From: Flammeovirgaceae bacterium
GTDB lineage: Bacteria > Bacteroidota > Bacteroidia > Cytophagales > Cyclobacteriaceae
NCBI GenBank assembly: GCA_027487845.1
Contig: JAIYCV010000023.1
Span: forward strand, 62,001-126,000
Direction: 5' to 3'
Length of the DNA: 64,000 nucleotides
Below the pieces are notes generated by a model. That model had not been told where the DNA came from. It saw only the letters and a program-made list of their open reading frames with translations, and searched no databases. Positions 30,682 through 49,221 of this stretch are shown in pieces. The translations under genes and the position numbers were made by a program. Numbering within the stretch: position 1 is the stretch's first letter; every line of letters begins with the position of its first letter.

Positions 30682-31128
30682 TTACTGCTTTTCTTTCTCA
30701 GCTTTGGCCTTTTCAATCACTTCTAGTGTAATTTCTTTTACTTTTTTAATGCGAAGCATCTCGTTCTCCAAGTATTCCCTCGCTTTCTCGTGGTCTACCG
30801 AATCGGCAATAGGATTGAAGTTATGCATCCAATCCATCATAGAACTGCTCGCTGAATCCAACTGAGCAATCACTTTTTCTACTTCTGCTTTTTTATCTTC
30901 TGCGAGGTTTTTGGTGCTATCCAATTTTGCCTGTAACCCCTTTTTTAATCGATACAGGTCTTCCATCTTAGGCATCACTTCATCGTGTATACTCATTACC
31001 TCATTATATAGAGCCTGGTTGGGATCATCGCTGTTGGCGCTGCCGCTATCTCCGTGTTTGTGTTCTTTATTGCATGATATGAGCGCTAACAACCCGAGGA
31101 TAATCGCAGATTTAAAATAGTGTTTCAT
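30682..31128 (-). CDS. small helical lipoprotein
   Basis: 148 residues. SPII signal with lipobox ALISC (Cys19), followed by an HKHGD stretch. The mature part is almost all charged helix with heptad character (MPKMEDLYRLKKGLQAKLDSTKNLAEDKKAEVEKVIAQLDSA) around a conserved-looking MMDWMHNF. Similar proteins are annotated as viral A-type-inclusion-like in Bacteroidota without a known role. Its promoter region is shared, divergently, with the Phe/Tyr operon leader. Confidence 0.7.
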   Translation of the reverse strand: MKHYFKSAIILGLLALISCNKEHKHGDSGSANSDDPNQALYNEVMSIHDEVMPKMEDLYRLKKGLQAKLDSTKNLAEDKKAEVEKVIAQLDSASSSMMDWMHNFNPIADSVDHEKAREYLENEMLRIKKVKEITLEVIEKAKAEKEKQ

Positions 31129-31236
31129 AGTTCATATGTTTGAAGTAAAGGTATTGCTTTTATCGGCAATGAACAATTGAGAGGCCCTTCAATTCAACTA
31201 ACACTAGTTAGTGATTTTAAAGATTTTTTAAAAACT

Positions 31237-31269
31237 TTTGAGTAATAGTTGCGCAACAAAATATTTTCA
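31237..31269 (+). promoter_or_regulatory. candidate promoter of the Phe/Tyr operon leader
   Basis: TTTG at 31237-31240 and TATTTTCA at 31262-31269 resemble the Bacteroidota -33/-7 elements with a 21-bp spacer (two mismatches in the -7). The predicted start near 31276 would leave a short leader before the leader-peptide ATG at 31296. Confidence 0.4.
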
Positions 31270-31295
31270 TCTTTCTTAGAGCCATTATTAAAGAC

Positions 31296-31367
31296 ATGAC
31301 CAACAGCCGTTTTTATTTTTATTATTTTTTTGGGTCTCCAGCGGGACTTGAACGAGCGGTTTGTTGA
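31296..31367 (+). CDS. Phe/Tyr-rich attenuation leader peptide (pheL-like)
   Basis: A 23-codon frame, ATG at 31296 and TGA at 31365-31367. Residues 6-12 are FYFYYFF: seven consecutive control codons (four Phe, three Tyr) in a peptide of the size of enterobacterial PheL. It lies in a leader that codes for nothing else, 76 bp before pheA. A ribosome stalled on these codons when charged tRNA-Phe or tRNA-Tyr is scarce would mask 31334-31340 and free the anti-terminator strand at 31342-31349. Too short for ordinary ORF calling. Ribosome binding site is weak (TTAAAG). Confidence 0.8.
   Translation: MTNSRFYFYYFFGSPAGLERAVC
31334..31347 (+). promoter_or_regulatory. attenuator pause hairpin (1:2 pairing)
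   Basis: GTCTC (31334-31338) can pair with GGGAC (31343-31347) around a CAGC loop, with one G-U pair. It begins two bases after the last Phe codon. When the leader ribosome does not stall, this hairpin would sequester most of the anti-terminator strand. Confidence 0.55.
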
Positions 31368-31401
31368 AAAGATAAAAAAGCAAAAAACTCAGAAAGTCCC
31401 G
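31342..31401 (+). promoter_or_regulatory. anti-terminator pairing of the Phe/Tyr attenuator
   Basis: CGGGACTT at 31342-31349 is complementary over all 8 bases to AAGTCCCG at 31394-31401, the 5' arm of the terminator, and is identical to the terminator's own 3' arm at 31410-31417. The two arms therefore compete for the same partner, the defining feature of an attenuator. Confidence 0.7.
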
Positions 31402-31420
31402 ACCAAAGTCGGGACTTTTT
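31394..31420 (+). terminator. attenuator terminator upstream of pheA
   Basis: Perfect 10-bp stem AAGTCCCGAC / GTCGGGACTT, loop CAAA, then TTTTT overlapping the stem end. No gene ends upstream of it on this strand (the neighbour at 30682-31128 is divergent), so its only possible job is to stop transcription entering pheA, 24 bp further on. Confidence 0.88.
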
Positions 31421-31443
31421 GTTTGTTAGCACTTGAGTGAATT

Positions 31444-32286
31444 ATGGGAAAGAAGAAAAAATTAAGAATTGCCATACAAGGAATAGCCGCCAGCTTTCAT
31501 GAAGTTGCTGCACTCACGTATTTTGACAGTGCAATTGAAACGGTGGAATGCCTCACGTTTCATAAACTGTGTGAAACGCTGTTGCATGACCAAGCCGACT
31601 TTGCTGTAATGGCCATCGAGAACTCTATTGCTGGCAGTATTCTGCCTAATTATTTCTTACTACAAGAGTATCATTTCAGCATTGTGGGTGAGGTGTACTT
31701 GCCAATTCACATGAACTTGCTCACACTGCCTGGCGTAAAGTTGGAGGAAATTAAAACAATTGAATCGCACCCCATGGCCATCCGCCAATGCGCTGATTTT
31801 TTGAATCGCTTAGATGGCGTTGAAATCCGCGAAAGCGATGACACCGCTTTTTCAGCGAAACGGGTGCAGGAACTAAAACTAAAGAATACCGCTGCCATCG
31901 CAAGTGAACTTGCAGCAAAACGATTTGGCTTACAGGTGTTAGAAAAGCGAATTGAAACCAATAAAAAGAATTTCACCCGCTTTTTGATTTTATCCAAGAA
32001 AGAGAAAAAGGACTCAGGAACTAACAAGGCATCGCTATGCTTTGAAGTGGCCAACGAGGTAGGAAGTTTGGCAGAAGCCTTGATGACGTTGAAAGCGAAC
32101 AGTATAAATTTATCTAAGATTCAAAGTATTCCCATCATCGGCAAGCCAAGCCAGTACAGCATTCATATTGACGTAGAGTGGAAAAGAAAGAAGGACTATG
32201 ATAATGCCATGCGGCTCGTGTTGAGGCAAGTGCGAAACTTGAATGTATTAGGTGAATATAAAAAGGCGAAAATTGAATATAGATGA
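31444..32286 (+). CDS. pheA: prephenate dehydratase
   Basis: 280 residues, monofunctional. N-terminal periplasmic-binding-like catalytic domain (IQGIAASFHEVAA, FAVMAIENSIAGSI with the family's ENS, IESHPMAIRQC, then the TRFLIL motif FTRFLILSKK with its catalytic Thr). C-terminal ACT domain (LCFEVANEVGSLAEAL...NLSKIQSIPI) for phenylalanine feedback. Converts prephenate to phenylpyruvate. First structural gene of the Phe/Tyr operon, directly behind the attenuator. Confidence 0.93.
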   Translation: MGKKKKLRIAIQGIAASFHEVAALTYFDSAIETVECLTFHKLCETLLHDQADFAVMAIENSIAGSILPNYFLLQEYHFSIVGEVYLPIHMNLLTLPGVKLEEIKTIESHPMAIRQCADFLNRLDGVEIRESDDTAFSAKRVQELKLKNTAAIASELAAKRFGLQVLEKRIETNKKNFTRFLILSKKEKKDSGTNKASLCFEVANEVGSLAEALMTLKANSINLSKIQSIPIIGKPSQYSIHIDVEWKRKKDYDNAMRLVLRQVRNLNVLGEYKKAKIEYR

Positions 32287-32287
32287 T

Positions 32288-32329
32288 TTCAAGTTCAATT
32301 TTAAATCTGGAATTTTAAATTTTGAATAC
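32288..32329 (+). repeat. degenerate heptamer array between pheA and the aminotransferase
   Basis: Six successive 7-mers with loose consensus TnAATTT (for example TCAATTT, TAAATTT) fill the 47-bp spacer up to five bases before the ATG. AT-rich, so individually weaker than the other arrays. Confidence 0.5.
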
Positions 32330-32333
32330 TGTA

Positions 32334-33494
32334 ATGATAACTACCGCAAAAAGAATAGAGTCTGTTGAAGAATATTACTTCTCAAAAAAACTAACCGAAG
32401 TACGAGGGCTCGATACACCTGACTTTCGGGTGATTAACCTGGGCATTGGTAGCCCCGACTTATCTCCCTCAGATAATACAATAGAAGCATTGGTAGTTTC
32501 AACGAAAAATGCCGCCAATCATGGCTATCAAAATTACAAAGGCATACCCGCACTGCGCAAAGCTATTGCTGATTTTTACAAGAGAACGTATTCGGTGTCG
32601 TTAGATGTGGAGGCAAGCATACTTCCGTTGATGGGATCGAAGGAAGGGATTATGCACATCGCTTTGGCTTTCGTTAATGAAGGTGACGAAGTGTTGATCC
32701 CTGATCCAGGTTATCCGACCTATTCGTCAGTGGCAAGGCTAGTGGGTGCAACAATTAAGACCTATGCAATGAGTGAAGCGCTTGATTGGGGTGTGGACAT
32801 CGAAGAACTAAAAAGGCGAGACCTATCAAAAGTTAAAATCATGTGGGTCAATTTTCCGCACATGCCTACCGGAAGAATCGCATCGCGTGAGGAGCTAAAG
32901 GAGTTGGTTGACTTGGCGAGAAAGAATCAGTTTCTTATTGTAAATGATAATCCGTACAGTATGGTATTGAATGACTCTCCTATGAGTATTCTATCTATTG
33001 AAGGTGCAGATGAAGTGGCGCTTGAATTGAACTCATTGAGCAAATCGCATAATATGGCTGGCTGGCGAATTGGCTGGGTAGCCGGCAAGAAGGAGTTTAT
33101 CGATGCGATTTTAAAAGTGAAGAGCAACATGGATTCTGGAATGTTTCTTGGCTTGCAACAAGCGGCTGTAGAAGCCTTACAAAACGGAGAATCTTGGTTC
33201 AATGAATTGAATAAAACATACTTGGAAAGGAGGGAAGTTGCCCGAGAAATTTTGAATGAACTTGGCTGCTCCTATGCTAGCAAACAATCAGGATTGTTTG
33301 TTTGGGCAAAGGCTCCCGCATCCGTTGCTGATGTAGAAAAATGGATTGACGAAATTTTGTATGGTACAAAAGTGTTCATCACACCGGGGTTTATTTTTGG
33401 TGAAACAGGCAGAAGATTTATTCGTATTTCTCTTTGTTGCACAGTAGAGAAATTGAATGAAGCGTTAGAACGAATCAAGAAATTTAGAAAGTGA
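32334..33494 (+). CDS. class I/II aminotransferase of the Phe/Tyr operon
   Basis: The ATG at 32334 gives 386 residues; a TTG 12 bp upstream lies in the heptamer array and is unlikely. PLP fold type I: GIGSPDLSPS, GYQNYKGIPALRKAI, NFPHMPTGRIA, active-site Lys in LNSLSKSHNMAGWRIGW, and the C-terminal RRFIRISLC with the substrate Arg. Expected to transaminate phenylpyruvate and 4-hydroxyphenylpyruvate, given its place between pheA and tyrA; LL-diaminopimelate-type aminotransferases look similar. Confidence 0.87.
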   Translation: MITTAKRIESVEEYYFSKKLTEVRGLDTPDFRVINLGIGSPDLSPSDNTIEALVVSTKNAANHGYQNYKGIPALRKAIADFYKRTYSVSLDVEASILPLMGSKEGIMHIALAFVNEGDEVLIPDPGYPTYSSVARLVGATIKTYAMSEALDWGVDIEELKRRDLSKVKIMWVNFPHMPTGRIASREELKELVDLARKNQFLIVNDNPYSMVLNDSPMSILSIEGADEVALELNSLSKSHNMAGWRIGWVAGKKEFIDAILKVKSNMDSGMFLGLQQAAVEALQNGESWFNELNKTYLERREVAREILNELGCSYASKQSGLFVWAKAPASVADVEKWIDEILYGTKVFITPGFIFGETGRRFIRISLCCTVEKLNEALERIKKFRK

Positions 33495-33543: not shown

Positions 33544-34431
33544 ATGAAAGTAACAATTATCGGTTTAGGTTTGATTGGCGGTTCGATGGCGTTGGATTTG
33601 CGCAAAGCAGGTATTGCTAGTTTTATTGCTGGTATTGACCTGAATCCTGCGCATGCCGCGAAGGCTATTGATCTTAAGTTGGTGGATTCTATTGAATCTG
33701 AAAACGTGGCGTTATCTACGTCTGATATTATTATCACGGCCATTCCTGTGAGCGCGTTGGTGGGCTTGCTGCCTTCTATTTTGGATATGGTTCAAAAGAA
33801 GGCCTTAGTTATTGATGCAGGCTCTACTAAAACACAGATTTGCCGTGCTTTAGCGAATCATCCGAACCGTTCCCAATTTGTAGCAGCCCATCCGTTAGCG
33901 GGTACCGAAAACTCGGGGCCTGAGGCGGCACTTTCGGGTTTATTTAGAGGTAAAACCAACATTATCTGCGAAAGCGAAAAGTCTTCAGACGAGTCTCTAA
34001 AATTGGCGCACACAGTATTTGATGCGTTGGGATTAAAGACCATTTACATGGAAGCAGAAGAACACGATAAGCACGTGGCATACGTTTCTCATCTGTCGCA
34101 CGTAAGTTCTTTTCTGTTGGGGCAAACGGTTCTTGATATCGAGAAGGATGAAAAAAATATCTTTGACCTAGCAAGTTCTGGGTTTGCTTCGACAGTACGT
34201 TTGGCAAAGAGTTCGCCAGATATGTGGACTCCTATCTTCGAGCAAAATGCAGAGTATCTGGGGCAGGCATTAATGGAATACATCATGCATCTACAAAAAT
34301 TTCATTATTTATTAATGAAGAAAGATACCAAAGAACTTCACAAGATCATGTCAAGGGCAAATGAAATCAGGCGTGTGCTTGACGGAATTGAACTGAAGAA
34401 TTTAAAACCAGAATTGATAAACAATAAGTAA
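33544..34431 (+). CDS. tyrA: prephenate dehydrogenase
   Basis: 295 residues. NAD-binding Rossmann start VTIIGLGLIGGSMALDLRK, then DAGSTKTQIC, AAHPLAGTENSGPEAA with the active-site His, and the helical dimer domain containing HDKHVAYVSHLSHVSSFLLG. Oxidatively decarboxylates prephenate to 4-hydroxyphenylpyruvate. No ACT domain is present, so tyrosine control may rest on the attenuator and on the DAHP synthase. Confidence 0.92.
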   Translation: MKVTIIGLGLIGGSMALDLRKAGIASFIAGIDLNPAHAAKAIDLKLVDSIESENVALSTSDIIITAIPVSALVGLLPSILDMVQKKALVIDAGSTKTQICRALANHPNRSQFVAAHPLAGTENSGPEAALSGLFRGKTNIICESEKSSDESLKLAHTVFDALGLKTIYMEAEEHDKHVAYVSHLSHVSSFLLGQTVLDIEKDEKNIFDLASSGFASTVRLAKSSPDMWTPIFEQNAEYLGQALMEYIMHLQKFHYLLMKKDTKELHKIMSRANEIRRVLDGIELKNLKPELINNK

Positions 34432-34464: not shown

Positions 34465-35568
34465 ATGAGCAAGAACACGTTAGAACTAAAACCTATCTCA
34501 AGTTGGATAAAAGCAAAAAGGCCATTGATTATTAGTGGACCTTGCAGTGCCGAAACGGAAGAACAGACCATCGCTACAGCGAAACAATTGGCGGCCACAG
34601 GAAAAGTAGATGCATTGCGTGCGGGTATTTGGAAGCCACGCACACGGCCTGGTCAATATGAAGGGGCAGGTGATATTGGATTGCAATGGCTGATGCAAGC
34701 AAAGAAGGAAACGGGTCTTCCCGTAACCACCGAAGTAGCGAATGCAACGCATGTGGAAGCCGCATTGAAAGCAGGTGTCGACATTCTTTGGGTAGGAGCC
34801 AGGACCACTGTGAATCCGTTTTCAGTTCAAGAAGTGGCCGATGCGTTGAAAGGAGTTGATATCCCAGTAATGGTAAAGAATCCCGTAAATCCTGATCTTG
34901 AACTTTGGATAGGAGCGTTAGAACGTTTAAATCGGGCGGGCATTACGAAGCTTGCGGCAATCCATCGCGGCTTCTCATCGTTTGAGAAAGGACCCTTCAG
35001 AAATCTACCGATGTGGGACATGGCAATTGAACTGAAAACCAAATTCCCCGAGTTGGACATCATTTGCGACCCAAGCCATATTGCTGGTAACCGCGAATTG
35101 ATTGCCATGATTTCTCAAAAAGCCCTTGACTTAGACATGGCTGGTCTAATGATTGAGAGTCATATAAATCCAGATGCTGCGTGGAGCGATGCAAAACAAC
35201 AAGTGACACCCGCCAACTTAGCGAAGATCGTAGATGGGCTTGTGGTAAGATCGGTTTCTTCTGATAACAAAATATTCAAAGACACCTTGAGCGTGTTGCG
35301 CGAGCAAATTGACCAATTGGACGATGACATCATGACCAAGATGGCAGCTCGTATGAAAATATCCGAAAAGATTGGTTCATACAAAAAGGAAAACAACGTT
35401 ACTATTCTTCAGGTAAATCGTTGGGAAGAAATCATTCAAACACGCGTAGCAATGGCCAAAGCCATGGGCATCGATGAAGGATTTATGCGGGATTTATTGC
35501 GCTTAATGCACCATGAATCCATTCAAGTGCAAACAAAAATTATGAACAAAGTTGAAGCTAGAGTTTAG
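34465..35568 (+). CDS. bifunctional 3-deoxy-7-phosphoheptulonate synthase / chorismate mutase
   Basis: 367 residues. Residues ~1-260 are a KDO8P-type (AroAI-beta) DAHP synthase: GPCSAETEEQ, GIWKPRTRPG, TEVANATHVE, GARTTVNPF, MVKNPVNPDLELW, AIHRGFSSF and DPSHIAGNRE. Residues ~272-360 are an AroQ chorismate mutase (LREQIDQLDDDIMTKMAARMKISEKIGSYK). It combines the first step of the shikimate pathway with the branch step to prephenate, the substrate of pheA and tyrA upstream; the mutase domain probably also works as the feedback sensor. Confidence 0.94.
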   Translation: MSKNTLELKPISSWIKAKRPLIISGPCSAETEEQTIATAKQLAATGKVDALRAGIWKPRTRPGQYEGAGDIGLQWLMQAKKETGLPVTTEVANATHVEAALKAGVDILWVGARTTVNPFSVQEVADALKGVDIPVMVKNPVNPDLELWIGALERLNRAGITKLAAIHRGFSSFEKGPFRNLPMWDMAIELKTKFPELDIICDPSHIAGNRELIAMISQKALDLDMAGLMIESHINPDAAWSDAKQQVTPANLAKIVDGLVVRSVSSDNKIFKDTLSVLREQIDQLDDDIMTKMAARMKISEKIGSYKKENNVTILQVNRWEEIIQTRVAMAKAMGIDEGFMRDLLRLMHHESIQVQTKIMNKVEARV

Positions 35569-49147: not shown

Positions 49148-49221
49148 TGGAGAATATCGGAGTCGAACCGATGACCTCTTCCATGCCATGGAAGCGCTCT
49201 AGCCAGCTGAGCTAATCCCCC
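49148..49221 (-). tRNA. tRNA-Ala (anticodon GGC)
   Basis: 74 nt, full cloverleaf: acceptor GGGGGAT/ATTCTCC with G-U pairs, D stem GCTC/GAGC, anticodon stem CTTCC/GGAAG around loop ATGGCAT (anticodon GGC, reads GCC/GCU alanine codons), T stem ATCGG/CCGAT with loop TTCGACT. Discriminator A; CCA is not encoded. Confidence 0.95.

Follow-up and report, generated by a model that had tools for sequence, protein, structure and literature searches.

What controls the aromatic amino acid operon that opens with pheA in this Flammeovirgaceae bacterium? In the window, by which we mean the whole 64,000-nt stretch of DNA that was analyzed, a reading made from the sequence alone had proposed a complete ribosome-mediated attenuator in front of pheA. 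Our analysis points to the same answer: with a probability of roughly 0.93, the pheA/aminotransferase/tyrA/DAHP synthase-chorismate mutase operon is controlled by a ribosome-mediated attenuator that would sense charged tRNA-Phe and tRNA-Tyr. The coordinates of the features are collected in Table 1.

Table 1. Leader elements and operon genes in the window, with the related leaders located farther upstream in other genomes
Feature	Position	Strand	Basis or remark
Promoter candidates, weak: TTTG 31237-31240 + N21 + TATTTTCA 31262-31269, or CATCTTTC 31268-31275	31237..31275	+	Consensus letters, relatives
Leader peptide ORF MTNSRFYFYYFFGSPAGLERAVC	31296..31367	+	Window sequence and ORF list; 23 codons
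Control codons TTT TAT TTT TAT TAT TTT TTT (FYFYYFF)	31311..31331	+	Window sequence; both TTT/TTC and both TAT/TAC used in relatives
Possible 1:2 protector hairpin, 31329-31338 with 31343-31352	31329..31352	+	-8.4 kcal/mol alone; no covariation support
Region 2, antiterminator strand CGGGACTT, within the leader ORF	31342..31349	+	Sequence; covariation with region 3
Region 3, terminator 5′ arm; 31394-31401 also pairs with region 2	31390..31403	+	Fold, covariation
Region 4, terminator 3′ arm and T-rich tail	31408..31424	+	Terminator -22.2 kcal/mol; covariation
pheA, prephenate dehydratase, standalone type	31444..32286	+	PF00800, E 8e-57
Class I/II aminotransferase	32322..33494	+	PF00155, E 9.1e-70
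tyrA, prephenate dehydrogenase	33544..34431	+	PF02153 and PF20463
DAHP synthase-chorismate mutase fusion	34465..35568	+	PF00793 and PF01817
Sister leaders (L070, L072-L076, L078-L085, L208, L210, L212-L215)	~4 kb upstream of pheA		Family genomes

A Phe/Tyr leader and its alternative structures

Pfam assignments bore out the operon content described by the sequence-only reading, namely, pheA, tyrA, and a shared DAHP synthase-chorismate mutase. The nearest gene upstream of the leader (30682-31128) lies on the opposite strand, and therefore the terminator has no evident customer other than the pheA operon, in agreement with the earlier claim that it serves no other gene. The sequence and the ORF list likewise confirmed the 23-codon leader ORF and its seven consecutive Phe/Tyr codons, every one of which is TTT or TAT in the window. 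Among 1,750 short ORFs of the window (8 to 45 aa, distinct stops, both strands), this was the single case of seven consecutive F/Y residues. A detector that requires an aromatic-run short ORF together with a terminator and a strand able to pair with the terminator 5′ arm matched the plus strand of the window once, at the Phe/Tyr leader, and the minus strand not at all. The promoter had been called weakly, and for the window this caution was justified: the best candidate carries 8 of 10 consensus letters and its box is degenerate. By eye, CATCTTTC could be lined up with the TATCTTTG of relatives, which L002-L004 carry 17 to 18 nt before the leader AUG.

Three features expected of an attenuator of this type were found. 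The first, a short ORF in the leader whose run encodes the product amino acids (FYFYYFF), has counterparts in relatives. An intrinsic terminator, recognized by sequence, fold, and covariation, separates the leader from the first gene; its 14-bp stem (31390-31403 with 31408-31421) encloses a CAAA loop, is followed by T-rich sequence, and ends 22 nt before the pheA start. Finally, a mutually exclusive antiterminator pairing (2:3) is provided by the 8-base competing strand that had been pointed out at 31342-31349; CGGGACTT indeed occurs there and is repeated at 31410-31417 in the terminator 3′ arm.

The 151-nt leader folded at -43.4 kcal/mol (z = -4.05), and none of 200 shuffles folded as well. 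When folded from region 2 to region 3, with the polymerase just past region 3, the RNA adopted the 2:3 pairing (-19.8 kcal/mol), and with region 4 added it switched to 3:4 (-25.6 kcal/mol); in these predicted folds, this change is the kinetic switch of classical attenuation. The earlier reading had also placed a 5-bp hairpin at 31334-31347. These pairs are present; however, the predicted helix is longer (10 bp) and gained no support from covariation. In the segment 31296-31404, which includes region 1 and in which region 4 is not yet made, 2:3 still prevailed over 1:2 (-22.6 kcal/mol), so that, if the leader is not translated, termination would depend on kinetics. The mechanism does not strictly require the 1:2 hairpin because passage of a ribosome over region 2 is enough. 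The fold also showed the antiterminator extended by GAG:CTC, which did not appear clearly in the alignment columns.

We infer that the leader is translated, that the ribosome stalls, that transcription terminates in the cell, and which way the response runs. When Phe and Tyr are plentiful, the ribosome would cross the FYFYYFF run and move over region 2; with region 2 covered, region 3 would pair with region 4 and transcription would stop at about position 31420. When either amino acid is short, the ribosome would stall in the run and leave region 2 free to pair with region 3 before region 4 is made, and the RNA polymerase would read into pheA. In the window, 10 nt separate the end of the run from region 2, and stalling on the last codons would therefore place the ribosome over part of region 2.

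Taken alone, the complementarity of the window leader is modest evidence. Its competing strand is moderately unlikely by itself, as 67 of 2,000 interval shuffles bind the terminator arm equally well, and it is the comparison with relatives that settles the matter.

Distribution of the leader among relatives

We sought PheA in 98 genomes of the family and found it in 92. In 35 of these, the detector matched upstream of pheA and on its strand, directly before the gene in 17 and at 3.6 to 4.8 kb upstream, before DAHP synthase, in 18, while the reverse strand of the same stretches gave no match in 273 kb. A second set of named loci (the best 80 of 563 relatives) yielded 34 matches, each at most 253 nt from pheA, compared with one match in 1.218 Mb of control sequence. 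The two sets overlap partly, with two leader peptides identical in both. These counts were obtained with the second version of the detector; the first (30/92 and 33/80) missed terminators with a stem extending into the T tract. All three genus genomes examined (G000, G017, and G094) contained counterparts of the leader, and the matching named loci include, by their titles, Chryseosolibacter, Parachryseolinea, Prevotellaceae, Flavobacterium, Flavicella, a Kapaibacterium, and a Thermochlorobacteriaceae genome. Many of the matching named loci are metagenome bins, and one that is labelled Acidobacteria may be a binning error. A tandem pair of aromatic leaders, both with terminators, was observed before pheA in L086 (G037).

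The distribution followed the type of PheA. All 35 family matches fell within the 49 genomes with a standalone-type PheA and none among the 43 with other types, the split being our own cut at E 2.1e-42 or better. Open frames of 332 to 451 aa were found for 39 of these 43, and 4 were shorter (G038, G054, G055, and G057); the five N termini inspected by eye begin with a chorismate mutase-like part. In total, the detector was silent in 57 of the 92 family genomes, including the 43 of the other PheA type, and in 46 of the 80 named loci, among them 9 of the 10 titled Prolixibacteraceae. Four genomes (G006, G008, G052, and G089) have an apparently single pheA and no leader by the detector, and four others of the standalone type (G068, G035, G078, and G073) carry leader and terminator with a competing strand shorter than 6 nt. 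The upstream sequence was short for G056 (61 nt), G069 (327 nt), G060 (582 nt), and G003 (1,500 nt), and for G039 and G097 it extended over 2.6 kb, so that a leader 4 kb upstream would be missed.

A covariance model, R1, built from six leaders and limited to the terminator helix, scored at least 40 bits in 16 of 30 pheA loci (six of them its training rows) and at most 21.8 bits in everything else. In the window's own genome, the model gave 77.6 bits at the pheA leader and 30.7 bits at the next best site. Across the 98 genomes, at least 75 had a match at E 0.05 among the matches listed; R1 matches alone were not counted as leaders because the weak ones include bare terminators (L057, L059, L061, and L063).

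Complementarity and covariation of the competing strands

To examine the competing strand, 75 unique leaders were called in 176 stretches with complementarity not demanded. As the sequence-only reading had anticipated for a comparison across relatives, the Phe/Tyr run was kept, and 69 of the 75 leaders carried a competing strand of at least 6 nt. The mean duplex energy with the leader's own terminator arm was -14.2 kcal/mol, compared with -10.2 kcal/mol (sd 0.3) for permuted arms, and none of 10,000 permutations was as good; 62 of the 75 leaders had z scores under -2 relative to dinucleotide shuffles. The leader's own arm is not a unique partner: a median of 11 of the 74 arms from other leaders bind equally well, because many arms have one core in common.

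Covariation was examined on 45 rows that remained from 52 loci given to R1 after 7 loci with no match at 1e-4 had been dropped. The alignment (A7) was guided by R1; with plain MAFFT (A1 and A2), the terminator arms came out of register. For the terminator helix (3:4), the covariation score was 0.340 compared with 0.177 in shuffles, none of 500 of which reached it; 99.0% of cells were paired, double changes occurred in 10 of 11 pairs across the 45 leaders, and every measure stood above all shuffles. For the antiterminator helix (2:3), the score was 0.194 compared with 0.144, again reached by 0 of 500 shuffles, with 89.4% of cells paired. Five of its pairs showed double changes, a number reached by 11 of 500 shuffles, and further pair types were not above shuffles (89/500 reached the observed number). 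Related rows can beat shuffles without structure; slid controls dropped to 60% and 69% or lower. A joint change is seen in L017, which has TCCGAGATC in region 2 and AAAAGGGTCTCGGA in the terminator arm. In the 1:2 hairpin, by contrast, 63.7% of cells were paired compared with 61.6% in shuffles, and double changes were no more frequent than in shuffled rows. The covarying stems that had been expected were thus found for the antiterminator and the terminator, but not for the 1:2 hairpin. Together, sequence and comparison document the coded run, the predicted alternative pairings and their covariation, and the place of the leaders before aromatic operons.

Control codons and operon content

The amino acid composition of the 75 leaders is given by the search, because they were picked for Phe/Tyr. 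Their codon use is not: TTT occurred 270 times, TTC 92, TAT 135, and TAC 133, and this free mix of T and C at the third base points to selection at the protein level rather than to a T tract.

The runs also appear to follow the genes behind them. The order pheA, aminotransferase, tyrA, DAHP synthase was found in 24 of the 34 named operons with a leader. The Tyr share of the run was 0.45 with tyrA (n = 29) and 0.30 without it (n = 5; P = 0.006, uncorrected for kinship), L200 having been left out since its contig ends early. Before operons without pheA, G030 (L221 and L067) carries the Tyr-only leader RYYYYYC ahead of aminotransferase-tyrA, a leader that R1 picked up at 35.5 bits and the detector did not, and G077 carries NFYFYYYF ahead of aminotransferase-tyrA-DAHP synthase; in L176, where pheA alone was found, the run is RFWFFFF. 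These cases hint that the leader codons may track operon content. We also considered Trp as a third sensed amino acid and set it aside as too sparsely represented (4 W among 36 run interruptions, W anywhere in 14 of the 75 leaders).

Other operons of the window's genome are preceded by similar arrays. The hisG leader (L222) is MNRKNSLHHHHLLSNLVGETML, with HHHH; the trpE leader (L223) is MKAFSFIAWWWHRSVFDR, with WWW; and MIVSNNDKFNLSTSSVVISVIILRKPGQ (L226), with VVISVIIL, precedes an operon of a class IV aminotransferase gene, ilvE judging by its position, and ilvD. Each of these His, Trp, and Ile/Val leaders has a strong terminator and, as judged from folds only, a predicted antiterminator. 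In the family, a WW-type leader with a terminator was found before 28 of 30 trpE loci and a corresponding His leader before only 9 of 30 hisG loci, with none on the reverse strand in either case; these scans did not demand a competing strand and covered 30 loci each from the 41 trpE-bearing and 39 hisG-bearing genomes. A Thr/Ile-rich short ORF, MLKSISIINTKTFIAEQTICITTISITG, was also observed in the window's genome (L229, 1977-2063), 81 nt before thrA and with no terminator by the detector. The arrays suggest that this genome uses attenuation much as enterobacteria do, with Phe/Tyr leaders alongside His, Trp, and Ile/Val leaders.

These observations bear on the rival explanations. The leader ORF might be incidental and the terminator constitutive, controlled by a protein in a TRAP-like manner, or part of a riboswitch, with no sensing by the ribosome. 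The terminator is indeed the strongest and best-conserved part of the element, and leader translation is only predicted. Nevertheless, an incidental ORF would hardly keep its Phe/Tyr run with both synonymous codons, nor would runs suit the operon elsewhere (YYYYY, HHHH, and WWW). Moreover, riboswitches and T-boxes were absent from the 20 Rfam matches listed for the leader (E up to 5), in which every cis-regulatory family (Phe_leader at 41 bits, rimP, Thr_leader, rnk_pseudo, and Rev39) was below threshold; the T-box gave no Rfam match in the whole window at the gathering threshold or in 31130-31600 at E up to 5. We consider this explanation improbable.

Still less probable is that the leader peptide acts in trans, or that the leader boosts pheA translation by reinitiation, with attenuation being secondary. 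Precedents can be found in excerpts of published work, which report a trans-acting leader peptide, peTrpL (PMC7298713), and propose reinitiation from leader genes with a distance peak in Bacteroidetes (PMC4833913). However, the peptides vary greatly from one relative to another except in the run and in the stretch coding for region 2, and 76 nt, with the terminator among them, separate the leader stop from pheA, whereas the Bacteroidetes peak is given as 11 to 14 bp in the excerpted text (PMC4833913). That the terminator merely ends upstream transcription and the aromatic ORF is a chance product of a T-rich stretch, in which all seven codons happen to be TTT or TAT, is the least credible explanation. 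The closest gene upstream lies on the opposite strand, 35 of 92 family genomes and 34 of 80 named loci show the array again with mixed codons and a covarying competing strand, and the controls are nearly empty. Attenuation by a ribosome reading the Phe/Tyr run thus accounts best for the window leader.

Sister leaders at a distance from pheA

In longer operons in which pheA comes late, the leader is found about 4 kb upstream as MLIAAFAYFTFFYFYFRPQGRIGAAYCLVKN and its kin, with a competing strand of its own, GAATCGG. The gene that follows was identified as DAHP synthase-chorismate mutase by Pfam in the one case tested, L054, and by frame likeness in others. A perfect -7 box, TAnnTTTG, was present in 20/20 of these sister leaders, which are close relatives and not 20 independent cases, compared with 4.4% of shuffles and with 11 of the remaining 55 leaders. 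In 19 of the 20, TTTG stands 17 to 23 nt upstream of the -7 box, and the distance from the end of the box to the AUG was exactly 4 nt in 19 and 5 nt in the other. The TAnnTTTG box has been placed at -12 to -5 (PMC9723704, in the text available), and with a spacing of 4 nt, the sister transcripts should therefore begin at the AUG. The promoter spacing thus suggests that the sister leader mRNAs are leaderless, as is described for the trpL leader mRNA of Sinorhizobium in the excerpted text of PMC7298713.

We regard it as slightly better than an even chance that attenuation is general in the family, covering aromatic, Trp, His, and Ile/Val operons, and that the transcripts of the sister class start exactly at the leader AUG. 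If so, general attenuation would require kinetically coupled transcription and translation at the leaders of bacteria that do not depend on Shine-Dalgarno sequences, and in the AUG-start sister transcripts ribosome and polymerase would race from the first base.

Comparison with known systems

The window leader scored 41 bits against Rfam family RF01859 (Phe_leader), whose gathering threshold is 55, and the element is therefore not filed under that family. The model aligns end to end with the window leader, with many of its pairs unformed. The four other loci searched in the window's genome had no Rfam match at E 0.01, so that annotation based on Rfam would miss them together with the window leader. 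The only Rfam match at the gathering threshold in the window was a tRNA gene (49148-49221, minus strand).

Other cis-regulatory elements have been described in the phylum. A comparative survey of attenuation by Lopatovskaya et al. in 2010 may already list Bacteroidota cases. The Bacteroid-trp RNA presumably precedes trp genes, as its name implies. Table 1 of PMC2864571, in the part of that paper available, counts this RNA (RF01692) among the likely cis-regulatory RNAs of Bacteroidetes; the RNA concerns another amino acid and gave no match in the trpE locus of the window's genome at E 0.01 or better. Leader-like sORFs were noted in Bacteroides thetaiotaomicron (excerpt of PMC7366714). Closest to the present case, excerpts of PMC9723704 describe strong clues for leader-peptide attenuation before amino acid operons of Flavobacterium psychrophilum and, in Flavobacteriaceae, a 5′ element conserved before pheA, for which the excerpted text specifies neither peptide nor structure. 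This is the same gene in the same phylum, and our Flavobacterium and Flavicella loci (L196 and L204) carry aromatic leaders. The suggestion that a textbook case in Bacteroidota would be noteworthy hence needs correction, as clues to attenuation there are already in print in the excerpted text (PMC9723704). What is added here is the peptide, the covarying structure, the spread, the codon-operon hint, the use at several operons, and the likely leaderless sister class; within the open-licence PMC literature, to which the search was confined, with subscription journals outside its scope, these points were not found.

Collectively, the attenuator is ordinary in mechanism and of moderate interest for its phylum, its breadth, and the question of coupling: the mechanism is textbook, its use in Bacteroidota is little described, and polymerase-ribosome coupling in this phylum becomes testable at such natural reporters. 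Comparative sequence evidence now lends good support to leader-peptide attenuation as the probable control of a Bacteroidota aromatic operon.

The likeness to the enterobacterial pheL-pheA attenuator, drawn from the outset, held for the leader peptide, the competing strand, and the terminator, but not to the extent of reaching the Rfam Phe_leader threshold. Both systems have a leader ORF with aromatic codons, competing 2:3 and 3:4 pairings, and a terminator just before pheA. PheL of Escherichia coli is Phe rich and contains no Tyr, whereas the window leader mixes Phe and Tyr codons, has region 2 inside the ORF, and precedes an operon that also carries tyrA and DAHP synthase. One leader that senses several products of its pathway is known from the E. 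coli ilvGMEDA (Ile/Val/Leu) and thr (Thr/Ile) attenuators. Mixed control codons are thus common to these systems and the window leader, which differs in its set, Phe/Tyr, and in its phylum, and here the mixture would give a single switch for both branches of the pathway.
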